11,711 nucleotides of DNA from the NCBI GenBank assembly GCA_007127275.1, contig SKZP01000548.1, positions 1 through 11,711 of the forward strand, written 5' to 3'. The stretch is from Planctomycetota bacterium (GTDB taxonomy: Bacteria; Planctomycetota; UBA8742; SKZP01). Every line of letters starts with the position of its first letter. Position 1 is the first letter of the stretch. The position numbers were made by a program, and so were the translations under genes. The notes below the pieces were generated by a model. The model saw only the letters and a program-made list of their open reading frames with translations. It had not been told where the DNA came from and did not search any database. This document shows positions 4,859 through 8,684 of the stretch, one piece after another.

Positions 4859-5035
4859 GCAGCTCGTTCAAAAGAGCCACGCCACACAATACACTTCACA
4901 CACTCGGTCGTGACTGAGCTCAAAGACAACTCCTTTTACCTCATTCCCAAACGCAACGACAACCGCCGAACAAAGATTAAGCAATTGGGCGAGGCATCCG
5001 CTTGGGCCGCTTCCGCGACGACGAGTGATGGCCGA
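4859..5035. promoter_or_regulatory. Divergent intergenic region with near-palindrome CTCgGTCgtGACtGAG
   Basis: This stretch separates the minus-strand kinase from the plus-strand protease remnant and is visibly richer in A+T than its surroundings, as expected of a control region. At 4903-4918 there is a 16-base near-palindrome, CTC-n-GTC-nn-GAC-n-GAG, which could bind a dimeric regulator such as the LuxR-type regulator encoded next door. That is inference. No convincing -35/-10 pair was found on either strand, so the promoters are not assigned. An open frame from a GTG at 4910 crosses this region, but its first ~75 codons show no domain and no signal peptide. Confidence 0.35.
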
Positions 5036-5491
5036 ATGGCCGGCAAAGACTCCGCGCCCCTCGCCGTTCGGGGCAGTCTGCCCGCAAATCAAAGATGTAG
5101 CTCCGCAGAGGCGGCCAAGCAGCCAAGGGGAGGGCGAGGGCCGTCGAAGCCAGCGCTCGAACACGTCGCCGAGCCGGCCGGGGCGCTCGTCGAGACCGTC
5201 GTCCGCTTGCATGTCGAGTCGGAAACGGTTGGCCTCGGTCTTGTCGTCGACGAGGCGGGCCACATGCTCAGCAAGCTCTCCGAAGTGGGGATGAATCCAC
5301 CGCACCTCGACCTCGAACGCGATCTGCGACGGTACACAGGCAAAATGATCGCTGGCGATGATTTCCGCGACGTCGCGTTGATTCGCATTGACGCCGACGG
5401 ACTCATGCCGGTCGAGGTCGCCGACGAGCAGCCGGACCTCGGCGAGTTCGTCGCCGCCGTGAATGAGGTCGGTGAGCCGTGGGGCTCGTAG
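4910..5491 (+). pseudogene. Truncated trypsin-like (DegP/S1C-type) serine protease domain, probable pseudogene
   Basis: The open frame is 193 codons from a GTG with no ribosome binding site. An ATG at 5036 is an alternative start. From about residue 80 (5147) it resembles the N-terminal half of a DegP-like protease: VVRLHVESETVGLGLVVDEAGHMLSKLSEVG, interrupted here as residues 97-127, then DDFRDVALIRIDADGLMPVE and GEFVAAVNE. Intact proteases have THxV where this has SKLSEV, so the catalytic His is absent. The Asp equivalent may be D154 in RDVAL. The frame stops before the catalytic Ser and any PDZ domain. In the -1 frame the sequence GCC GTG GGG CTC GTA (5476-5490) reads AVGLV, similar to the AVGxVS strand that follows in this family. 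That suggests a frameshift near 5474. With no signal peptide and half the domain lost, I read it as a remnant. A short inactive protein cannot be excluded. Confidence 0.5.
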
Positions 5492-5580: not shown

Positions 5581-6021
5581 TTATCGGCTCAAAAACAGCC
5601 GCATGAAGCCATGTTATCGGCGGCACAGGTTTGCCGATAATGCAACGGCGCCGGCCGTCTGAGCAGTCCGATAACGCTACTACATATTATCGGGCCTTTG
5701 GGAGGACGACCCCCATCGCATTATCGGCAGCGACCCTTGCGGCATAGACGGGTTATCGGCGGCAAGTGCTGCCGGCATTATCGGCTGCTGCCGCTTTTCT
5801 GCATGGGCGGTTTATCGGCACATTCGGCAAGGTGTGTCAATGCGTATTATCGGCAGGCGCTTCGGCTGGTCGAGAGGGATTATCGGCTTTCGATGGCGCT
5901 TTGTACGAACGGGTTATCGGCACAGTCGCAACGGCGAGCATGGTCGCATTATCGGCGCCGGTACCAAGTGGTCGGGATGTGTTATCGGCGCAGATAACGC
6001 ATGTGTCTCGCGTGTTATCGG
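5581..6021. repeat. Regularly spaced array of 15 TTATCGG(C) motifs
   Basis: Plus-strand TTATCGG starts at 5581, 5614, 5687, 5721, 5753, 5778, 5812, 5847, 5880, 5914, 5949, 5982 and 6015. The reverse form CCGATAA starts at 5634 and 5668. In 13 of 15 copies the next base is C (TTATCGGC), and in 14 of 15 the preceding base is a purine. Start-to-start distances are 32-35 bp, apart from 25 (5753 to 5778) and the two orientation switches (20 and 19). The 18-28 bp between copies show no similarity to each other. A looser reverse copy, CAGATAA, lies at 5991-5997. The distances are not multiples of three, so the motif drifts through reading frames and the array is not coding. It lies between two convergent gene ends (5491 and 6036). 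Its function is unknown. The core is far too short for a CRISPR repeat. Confidence 0.9.
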
Positions 6022-6035
6022 CGTGCTCGGTTTCG

Positions 6036-6509
6036 CTAGTTGTCGTCAAGTCGGCGGAACTCGCCTCGGTACAAACGCCAGCCGCGGTACAACTCGGTGT
6101 CTTCGCCGCGGATCAGTTCGAAGCGCACGGGTAGCGGTCGCATGCTGTATATGTCGTCGTCGCCGTGAAGGCGTATCATCGCTGTCACCTCCGCGTGGTC
6201 GCCATCAACATCAATCTCGACGTTTCGTACTTCGAGTTCCTCGACGGTGCCGCGCCCGAGCTCGCGGTTGACCACCTCTACGAGGTTGTCGTACGCAACC
6301 ACGGATGATTGACCGGCGCCCCCACCGAACGCGAAGTCGCGCCGAAAGGCCGGCAAGGCGGACTCGAAGTCGCCCGCTTCCACCGCCTGATGCACGTCCT
6401 TAAGTAGCGCCTGAATGGCGTCGCGGTCCGGCGTGCAGGTCCACCAGAGCAGGAACGTGCCGAGCCCGACCAGGGCGGCTAAGCCGAGTGCAAGTCGCTG
6501 TCGTGTCAT
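6036..6509 (-). CDS. Small exported or membrane-anchored NTF2-like (SnoaL-fold) protein
   Basis: This encodes 157 residues. The N-terminus is a short basic stretch (MTRQR) followed by a hydrophobic segment, about residues 6-24 (LALGLAALVGLGTFLLWW). It is either a membrane anchor or a signal peptide; TCTP just after it could be a cleavage region. Residues 28-157 look like an NTF2/SnoaL-type alpha+beta domain: helices DRDAIQALLKDVHQAVEAGD and VVAYDNLVEVVNREL, then strands VEELEVRNVEID, DHAEVTAMIRLHG, LPVRFELIRG and WRLYRGEFRRL. Such domains form cone-shaped barrels used as enzymes or as binding and scaffold modules. I see no catalytic set that would assign an enzyme activity. The ATG at 6509 is preceded by GGAGGG four bases upstream, a much better start than the ATG 35 codons further up. 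It has no same-strand partner nearby, and its 3' end abuts the TTATCGG array. Confidence 0.8.
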   Translation of the reverse strand: MTRQRLALGLAALVGLGTFLLWWTCTPDRDAIQALLKDVHQAVEAGDFESALPAFRRDFAFGGGAGQSSVVAYDNLVEVVNRELGRGTVEELEVRNVEIDVDGDHAEVTAMIRLHGDDDIYSMRPLPVRFELIRGEDTELYRGWRLYRGEFRRLDDN

Positions 6510-6513
6510 GGGT

Positions 6514-6519
6514 TCCCTC
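6514..6519 (-). promoter_or_regulatory. Ribosome binding site deciding the start of the NTF2-like gene
   Basis: GGAGGG on the minus strand, four bases before ATG 6509. It fixes the start there rather than at the longer in-frame ATG at 6614, whose extra N-terminus would bury the hydrophobic leader. Confidence 0.7.
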
Positions 6520-6554
6520 CGCACTGAAGCGATGCCTGTTGCATGTCTGCAGCT

Positions 6555-6611
6555 TTGACCAAAAGAGAGCACCCCCAGTAGGTTGGGTCTCAACGAGCGC
6601 GTTTTGGTCAA
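6555..6611. repeat. Perfect 10-bp inverted repeat with 37-bp loop
   Basis: TTGACCAAAA at 6555-6564 is the exact reverse complement of TTTTGGTCAA at 6602-6611. The loop can form an inner stem, GAG..ACCC pairing with GGGT-CTC around 6565-6591. It lies upstream of the NTF2-like gene (its ATG is 46 bases further down on the minus strand), so it could be a cruciform or operator pair, or a hairpin in that gene's 5' leader. There is no U-run typical of a terminator. Confidence 0.6.
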
Positions 6612-6658
6612 CAAGTCAGAAGACCGTCCGAAGCCACCGAAGCGGGGGGAGAGGTCCG

Positions 6659-6672
6659 ATAATGTACATTAT
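6659..6672. promoter_or_regulatory. Perfect 14-bp AT-rich palindrome ATAATGTACATTAT
   Basis: A perfect 14-base palindrome in an otherwise G+C-rich surrounding, the usual look of an operator for a dimeric regulator or of a melting or nicking site. It overlaps a lone CCGATAA (6656-6662), the same heptamer found in the array 640 bp away. No promoter could be paired with it convincingly. Confidence 0.45.
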
Positions 6673-7025: not shown

Positions 7026-8684
7026 TCAAGTGGCGGGCGGCGGGGTAAAGCCAATTTGTGGCTTGTTGTTGCTCGGCGCAATCATTTGCAGAGCCTCGCG
7101 CAGGTGCTTTTCCTTGAGGCGCACCGTTCCGTCCTCCTCGTCGACGGACTTCGCTTCCACGGCGAGGATGGCGCCGAGCGTGATCAGTTCGCGCAATTCT
7201 GCACCGGTCAAGCCGTCGGTGTCCGAGGCCAGCCGTTTGTACCCAATGCGACCGACATTGTGATCTCGCATGTAACGGCGCAGCAGCCGCTCGCGGCAGG
7301 CAGCGTCCGGACGCTCGAAGTGGATGACCACGTCGAAGCGCCCCGGGCGGCTGCGCAGGGCGCGTTCAATGGAGTCAAGGTCGTTCGTCGTCAGGATGGT
7401 GATGACCCCGTCGTTGCCCACCGGGCCGTCGAGCTGGTTGAGAAATTCGCCAAGGATGGGGTTGTTGCCCTCGGCGTGAGTTTCGCGGTCCTTGAGGTAG
7501 AGGTCCATGTCCTCGAAAAAGATCACCGCCGGGGCGCAGCGGCGCGCCAACGCATACACGTTGACCACCGTGCGGGGATCCCCCTCAATGTGGCGCGGGC
7601 TGACCCAGATGAAGGTCAGCAGTCGCTCGCGGACGTTGGATTGCGCTGCGTCGCCCTCGCTGCTGTTTTTTGCCGTTGCGCCGCGGTCCCCGTCGAGGCC
7701 GACGCCACCGGCGACATCTTCATATACGGGCAACTCGTGGATGTTCGGCGACTGTGCCCGGCTGGGTTTCAGATCAATGCGCAGCGAGCGCTTCACGAGG
7801 TCGTTGGCAAGCACCTTGCCGGCGAGCGTCTTCCCCGTACCCGGCGGCCCCGCGAGGATCAGCCCGCGCTTGAGCGGCAAGCCGTTGCGTTGATACAGCG
7901 GCAGCTTGTCCAGCAACTCCACCGTATTGCGACGTAGTTGCCGCATTACCTCGGGGGAGAGAATCAACTCGTCCCAGCCGAAGGCCTCAATGGGCACGAA
8001 CTCCGCATGTGGCGTGATCACTTGACCCGCATAAATGGGGTGCTCGTCAATGTGGCGCTCGAGTTCGCCGGCCACGTCGCGCAACACGGCAAGCGAGTTC
8101 TCGTCCTCGCCGGCGTACCAGGTCAGCTTGCCGACTTCGCGCGGATCCGGGTCTGCAAAGGCAATGTGCAGCGCAAGCGGCACCCCTTTGACGCGCAACA
8201 AGAGCACCCCCTCGGCAACGCATTCGCGCGTTTGCTCCGGACCGACCGAGATCAGAATGCGACGCACCGGTGCGACGTCGTTGCGGTAAGAATGCTCGTT
8301 GAACGCCTCGAGCAATTCCGGCGCGGGCAGGCCCTCGTCGGCGTAGTCCCCCTTGAGCAGCCGGTCAATGTGGACGCAGACGTTGCCGCGTTCGAACGAG
8401 CCGAACCAGCGGTACCGCACGTGCAACGACTCGGGACGGGTGCCGAGGTGCGCGGCAATGCGCTGCCAAACGACCTCGCGAGCTTGCACCCGGTGCAAGG
8501 CGAGGTAGGCTGCCGGTGGTAGGTCCGTCCACGCGGTTTCCTTCGCGACGTGTTTTCCGAGCGCCTCGGGGTCGGGACGCAATTCGGCGGCCGAGGCGTG
8601 TGCGGGCTTCGCGGCCGAGGAGTTGTGGGTCACGGATTTGTTTCCGTTGCGGATGTCCGAGTCGGCGCGGCGGCGTTTCGTCAT
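7026..8684 (-). CDS. AAA+ family ATPase with uncharacterised N-terminal domain
   Basis: This encodes 552 residues of an ATP-driven remodelling protein whose substrate is unknown. Residues 1-48 are basic or polar and probably flexible. Residues 50-235 form an N-terminal domain that I do not recognise. The AAA module has Walker A GPPGTGKT 279-286, Walker B VIFFEDMD 387-394, sensor-1 N434 in LTTNDLD, and a second region of homology with R444, R446 and R449 in ALRSRPGRFD; LTGAELREL (492-500) marks the lid. Walker B reads ED where most AAA proteins read DE, a variant also seen in Bcs1-like proteins. Between Walker A and B (about 308-352) there is a hydrophilic insert rich in G, D, S and N, probably a disordered loop. 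No protease, membrane or zinc-binding domain is fused, so this is not FtsH. The start at 8684 has no clear ribosome binding site. It lies 111 bp downstream of coaX on the same strand and may be co-transcribed. A plain protein-unfolding or chaperone role is only a guess. Confidence 0.9.
   Translation of the reverse strand: MTKRRRADSDIRNGNKSVTHNSSAAKPAHASAAELRPDPEALGKHVAKETAWTDLPPAAYLALHRVQAREVVWQRIAAHLGTRPESLHVRYRWFGSFERGNVCVHIDRLLKGDYADEGLPAPELLEAFNEHSYRNDVAPVRRILISVGPEQTRECVAEGVLLLRVKGVPLALHIAFADPDPREVGKLTWYAGEDENSLAVLRDVAGELERHIDEHPIYAGQVITPHAEFVPIEAFGWDELILSPEVMRQLRRNTVELLDKLPLYQRNGLPLKRGLILAGPPGTGKTLAGKVLANDLVKRSLRIDLKPSRAQSPNIHELPVYEDVAGGVGLDGDRGATAKNSSEGDAAQSNVRERLLTFIWVSPRHIEGDPRTVVNVYALARRCAPAVIFFEDMDLYLKDRETHAEGNNPILGEFLNQLDGPVGNDGVITILTTNDLDSIERALRSRPGRFDVVIHFERPDAACRERLLRRYMRDHNVGRIGYKRLASDTDGLTGAELRELITLGAILAVEAKSVDEEDGTVRLKEKHLREALQMIAPSNNKPQIGFTPPPAT

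Follow-up and report, generated by a model that had tools for sequence, protein, structure and literature searches.

A largely one-directional array of 15 TTATCGG sites in a Planctomycetota draft genome as a candidate landing array for a DNA-binding protein

Introduction

The operators and stoperators of Cluster A mycobacteriophages such as L5 and TipsytheTRex are numerous asymmetric 13-mers that serve as binding sites for a monomeric repressor (PMC9283540). They are located in promoters and short intergenic spaces, and their orientation is tied to transcription (PMC9283540). Plasmid centromeres, including parC, parS of pSM19035, and tubC, likewise consist of clustered short direct repeats to which a small protein binds (PMC5016525). 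A third kind of array with even steps and variable spacers is found in CRISPR loci.

Here we describe 15 copies of the heptamer TTATCGG in an 11,711-nt window (the whole stretch of DNA analysed, contig SKZP01000548.1) of a Planctomycetota draft genome. Like stoperators, the array consists of many asymmetric sites that lie mostly in one orientation (13 of 15 on the + strand). Stoperators differ in being spread over a phage genome rather than set as 15 sites at 34-bp steps, and the host here is bacterial; their sequence also differs from TTATCGG. Of the known systems they are the one that the array, with a putative protein bound, would most resemble in its working. The repeats of plasmid centromeres are more closely spaced than the sites described here, and most such centromeres lie beside a par operon, whereas none of the window ORFs tested near the array was recognised as a par gene. 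Even steps and variable spacers are shared with CRISPR arrays, from which the locus differs in its 8-bp core, the mixed inner positions beside that core, its inverted units, and the lack of a protospacer match.

To our knowledge, it is unusual for a chromosome to carry an array of many asymmetric non-promoter sites whose step is measured and whose spacers are free, and a literature search, limited in extent and therefore no proof of absence, found no published account of such a bacterial or TTATCGGAC-type array. We propose, at roughly even odds and from sequence patterns, that this segment serves as a polar landing array, with many sites, for a putative asymmetric DNA-binding protein recognising GNRTTATCGGC.

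Results

Fifteen exact copies of TTATCGG or its complement CCGATAA, counted on both strands, lie within 441 bp (5581-6021). The entire 11.7-kb window holds 16 against an expectation of 0.46, and 200 shuffled versions contained at most three. With its consensus, the array was placed at 5581..6022 on the + strand from heptamer, column, and interval counts. The heptamer count places the two sites on the − strand (5634 and 5668) within the inverted elements TTATCGGC (5633..5640) and TTATCGGA (5667..5674). Successive intervals are, in order, 33, 20, 34, 19, 34, 32, 25, 34, 35, 33, 34, 35, 33, and 33 bp; 11 of the 14 steps thus measure 32-35 bp (mean 33.6, sd 0.9), the other three being 19, 20, and 25 bp, and 11 of the 14 spacers are 24-27 bp long. 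In 40,000 random placements, never more than eight intervals fell into one 4-bp bin, compared with the 11 of 14 observed.

Conservation extends beyond the heptamer. C follows it (position +7) in 13 of 15 sites, G occupies position -3 in 13 of 15, and a purine is found at -1 in 14 of 15, while position -2 and the spacers are free, so that -2 and -1 carry mixed bases between conserved neighbours. The extended site, GNRTTATCGGC, is non-palindromic and covers about one helical turn, with only 7 bp invariant. The original prediction of 15 heptamers in 441 bp, mostly 32-35 bp apart and retaining a 3' C, is borne out by these counts, to which the conserved G at -3 and purine at -1 can be added. Its description of the step as a little over three helical turns did not translate into a common helical face: with 10.5 bp to the turn, their phases are scattered (R = 0.38 over all 15 sites and 0.14 over the last eight), and a period of 11.25 suits the last eight (R = 0.93). 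The failure of the step to match an integral number of 10.5-bp turns was counted against the binding-array reading.

The mixed bases at -2 and -1 favour a recognised site over a copied repeat, in which one base would be expected there. A copied origin nevertheless has some support in a possible duplicated block at 5778..5981 on the + strand (5778-5879 followed by 5880-5981), in which the interval run 34, 35, 33 is immediately repeated (P = 0.02), the spacers agree at 36 of 78 positions at a lag of 102 bp, and several weak repeats have that same spacing. With the lag fixed beforehand from the intervals the similarity is strong; over all lags and windows it is not significant (P = 0.44). From the recurring intervals and matching spacers, one old three-unit duplication within the array is possible. 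It was claimed earlier that the spacers share nothing and that the array is no decayed 33-bp minisatellite; the spacers are indeed nearly unrelated and Tandem Repeats Finder reports no array at 5581-6021, yet the 102-bp block qualifies the first claim and leaves room for a decayed repeat. Under that alternative, units of about 34 bp, or 102-bp blocks of three, were duplicated and their spacers drifted, leaving the core with or without a function. We consider it unlikely: besides the mixed -2 and -1 inside a conserved site, 15 exact copies beside nearly unrelated spacers would call for selection on the heptamer in any case, selection that is itself judged from one sequence of one strain.

To the right of the array lies a SnoaL-like gene (6036..6614, − strand; Pfam SnoaL_4), the stop codon of which is 13 bp away and which probably starts at an ATG at 6509. 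Its protein had a single protein-database match, a 157-aa version (P0001) differing in one residue and encoded on a 7,678-bp contig, and none in 19 genomes of the class. To the left, a truncated HtrA/DegP-like ORF (4910..5491, + strand) ends 89 bp before the array; it matches DegP/HtrA over 89 residues (E = 3.5e-5, under the family cut-off), and a protein search returned no match besides itself. The proposed position between convergent gene ends is therefore plausible and even likely, but its left member is only a fragment, and may be a remnant, since the ORF ends inside the HtrA domain and matches only itself. The sixteenth heptamer of the window (ACATTATCGGACC, 6656..6662, − strand) stands outside the array, preceding the SnoaL-like gene at a distance of 42 bp from 6614 or 147 bp from 6509, and its 3' side matches the phage version of the site described below. 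Other genes in the window encode a 1,472-aa PAS/GAF histidine kinase, an AAA ATPase, type III pantothenate kinase, RbfA, and NadC. The AAA ATPase (7026-8684) shows weak similarity to IetA/TRIP13 defence ATPases (E = 5e-11), and its best match in class relatives is 45% identical over 164 residues. Among the 120 of 8,000 matches listed for NadC, the best-scoring named one (56% identity) belongs to a Planctomycetota bacterium, which points to a probable source in that phylum.

The source is a 3.53-Mb draft genome in 712 contigs, 54% complete. It contains 38 copies of TTATCGG, namely 15 in the array, the one at 6656, and 22 elsewhere, compared with 51 copies of the reversed control word; TTATCGGC occurs 23 times, 13 of them in the array. 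Among the 23 heptamers outside the array, 17 fall within mechanical ORFs of at least 100 aa and five are intergenic, the remaining one (6656) overlapping an unlikely ORF on the opposite strand. Only two of the 23, both within ORFs, fit G, R, and C together. A scan of 80 of the 712 contigs (567 kb) for other arrays found no larger 7-mer cluster than one of nine copies with steps in multiples of three.

As had been suggested, genome and relatives were scanned for spaced runs, and the array turned out to be unique in its own draft genome and no comparable one was detected in the 391 other phylum genomes. Four of 392 genomes, including its own, matched a search for three heptamers at the array steps; of the matches outside its own genome, two proved to be short tandem repeats and the third an isolated triple, with no cluster of seven or more flagged. 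Of 59 other genomes, 14 had pairs of TTATCGG 20-30 bp apart, each pair standing alone. The class comparison covered 19 other genomes, which share only the class with the source and include no closer relative. That a 54%-complete genome holds a single such array was also counted against the binding-array reading.

Two further features of the genome were observed. Another contig (C165; L584:11888-11948) has a further intergenic pair of GNRTTATCGG sites with 54 bp between them. They run in the direction of a gene, encoding a probably secreted protein, that lies some 120-180 bp downstream; the lone site at 6656 is likewise upstream of a protein with a signal-like start. The genome is also rich in palindromes of the form GCCCACGGGC-TTC-GCCCGTGGGT, with 66 core matches in 80 contigs and none in the window (for example at L404:3150-3480, L399:150-420, and L381:1750-1900, and on other contigs of the genome).

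Arrays of the same heptamer were found in phage contigs. When viral contigs were searched for three heptamers spaced 31-36 bp apart, 35 loci emerged, ten of which passed a filter of at least six sites in 450 bp with dissimilar flanks; the ten form approximately four groups (four of B type, two of A type, three C, D, and E contigs with common proteins, and one more). Control heptamers passed in none of 25 (GGCTATT), none of 30 (TGATTCG), and one of 46 loci (GTTCATG, a dense overlapping repeat). At 14-19 bp steps, TGATTCG passed at 12 of 43 new loci versus eight of 44 for TTATCGG, and phage heptamer arrays are therefore not special to TTATCGG at all steps. In the genome_contigs scan, three of 118 loci among the matches listed passed (L198, L132, and L137), with steps of 7-24 bp in the last two. 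L198, on a contig labelled Methanosaeta, carries ten TTATCGG in 300 bp (7577-7874) within a long ORF with an NrS-1 polymerase-like domain. Half the genome of the Microcystis phage MaeS holds 13 copies in 40 kb.

Phage sites mostly read R-TTATCGG-AC, with AC where the bacterial array has C. A purine stands at -1 in three of the four phage sets (75% of 373, 87% of 89, and 82% of 38 sites), while the B-type set reads TTATCGGCCC, with CCC after the core and no purine preference at -1 (A 0.50, C 0.36). Phage TTATCGGAC arrays thus share with the bacterial one the heptamer, the purine at -1 in three of four sets, and dissimilar flanks, and differ from it in the bases after the core and in steps that are irregular or about 14-17 bp; in one phage type the sites are spread over several kb, unlike those of the bacterial array. 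Across 13 phage loci, 245 sites point the same way as the nearest mechanical ORF and 100 the opposite way, with 118 unassigned; they thus tend to run along gene direction, as stoperators are described to do (PMC9283540). At four loci, 42 of 69, 34 of 48, 23 of 38, and eight of 29 sites are inside mechanical ORFs. Four viral contigs (L053, L059, L078, and L081) carry 17-19 TTATCGG, mostly as TTATCGGCCC and mainly at 15-17 bp steps, which are possible replication-origin iterons; in L053 they are downstream of genes for a primase/helicase and an ERCC4-type nuclease.

In four phage contigs (C, D, E, and L types), the site-rich region includes the gene for a 106-124 aa protein that has no Pfam match. 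A search with this protein, in which the motif was not used, led to 11 loci: four belong to the seed contigs, and among the remaining seven two look alike. TTATCGG was the commonest 7-mer in all 11 (once tied). These loci (L526-L536) contain 26-69 TTATCGG in about 6.2 kb, compared with 0-3 copies of four control words. The gene itself does not make up this count, because in the four seeds its copies number just two to five over both strands; near the start of two seed genes, the motif translates in frame to VIG. ERCC4-type nuclease is found in B, C, and D phage types, and no protein common to all TTATCGG phages was seen in the parts of several contigs that were covered. Neither a search of one member of the 106-124 aa protein against named phages (E <= 0.1) nor a comparison with solved structures gave a match.

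Discussion

From the observed sites, their polarity, spacing, and consensus, and their rarity elsewhere in the genome, we infer protein binding. A protein would land on GNRTTATCGGC about every 33-34 bp, mostly in one direction, and one molecule or dimer per site could build a nucleoprotein stretch occupying the gap that separates the HtrA-like fragment from the SnoaL-like gene. Such a stretch may act as a polar roadblock or silencer, similar to mycobacteriophage stoperators, and limit transcription across the gap; the array and the lone site at 6656 would then bracket the SnoaL-like gene. We place this mechanism first within the binding-array reading because of the one-way orientation, the gap between gene ends, and the lone site upstream of the SnoaL-like gene, together with the phage parallel and its bias along gene direction, although as a proposal by analogy it remains tentative and, taken by itself, unlikely. 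If a protein does load on the array, it would represent a new one-directional roadblock, silencer, or scaffold. Among the roles proposed at the outset, a multi-site binding array fits best, while nothing positive spoke for a nucleoid or partition protein as its ligand.

Two of those roles were not supported. A recombination target array finds no recombinase among the window ORFs tested (eight with Pfam, four with NCBIfam, and eight with PADLOC), and a repeat class akin to CRISPR is opposed by the mixed -2 and -1, chance-level spacer matches, and no cas gene among the same ORFs. CRISPR repeats are identical and about 21 bp or longer; the array fails as a CRISPR array by this standard, with its 7 invariant bp in an 11-bp site. 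Spacers gave best matches of E = 7 against phage records and E = 0.5 against plasmid records, both at chance level, and an origin of the spacers in the genome itself was rejected, the best BLAST match outside the array being E = 0.037 over 24 bp. A protein-coding repeat was rejected as well, because the steps are not multiples of three.

Several other functions can be set against the binding array proposed here. Iterons for an initiator, or a centromere-like array for a partition protein, would agree with the array being the only one in the draft genome, with the clustering of direct and some inverted short repeats as described for plasmid centromeres (PMC5016525), and with two phage groups in which TTATCGG arrays share a contig with a RepB-primase-domain primase/helicase. 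We regard an origin or partition array as rather improbable, given that no par, rep, or dnaA gene was found among the window ORFs tested (eight with Pfam, four with NCBIfam) and that the array site is not a DnaA box. The DnaA box has the consensus TTATNCACA; TTATC is common to both, and the absence of the subsequent CACA from the array sites led us to reject a DnaA-box cluster. Usual iterons also have a shorter step than the approximately 33 bp seen here.

At the RNA level, UUAUCGGC or GCCGAUAA could form repeated sites for an RNA-binding protein within a 3' untranslated region, as the position directly behind the SnoaL-like stop codon and the tendency of phage sites to run along gene direction might suggest. 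The + strand folds slightly better than shuffles (z -1.97, with 3 of 100 as stable), but folding is overall unremarkable (z -1.06 on the − strand, 11 of 100 shuffles as stable) and two sites are inverted, and such an element appears very unlikely. An Rfam search of the array gave nothing at gathering scores, a terminator scan found two candidates, neither clear, against a shuffle mean of 1.1, and a promoter scan found one against 0.3. Read on the − strand, the array could instead be a cluster of -10 elements for sigma-28 (FliA), the consensus of which is TAAAGTTT-n11-GCCGATAA (PMC2859248). The complement of the TTATCGG site, GCCGATAA, is exactly the -10 half at 13 of 15 sites, two differing in the first base, and the genome encodes a FliA/WhiG-type factor (G000:C659, 204.4 bits, cut-off 189.6). 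However, at n15 at least three bases of TAAA are present at none of the 15 sites, and at any one distance from n12 to n18 at no more than one; no column is conserved at the -35 distance, and conservation continues downstream instead. This reading is largely refuted and retains scarcely any probability.

The bacterial and phage TTATCGG sites may be alike because they share ancestry, because they converged on a single binding domain, or by coincidence. One version, which we hold to be a long shot, would make TTATCGG the recognition core of a DNA-binding family present in many phage lineages, and the chromosomal array either a decoy titrating the site-binding protein of an invading phage or a captured phage-type silencing array put to use by the host. 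The common core would in any event offer a route to the protein, by way of the TTATCGGAC binder in phages and then its bacterial relative. The 106-124 aa phage protein had no match in the source genome at E <= 1, and weak partial matches to it were detected in nine of 20 genomes of the class (best E = 0.0033).
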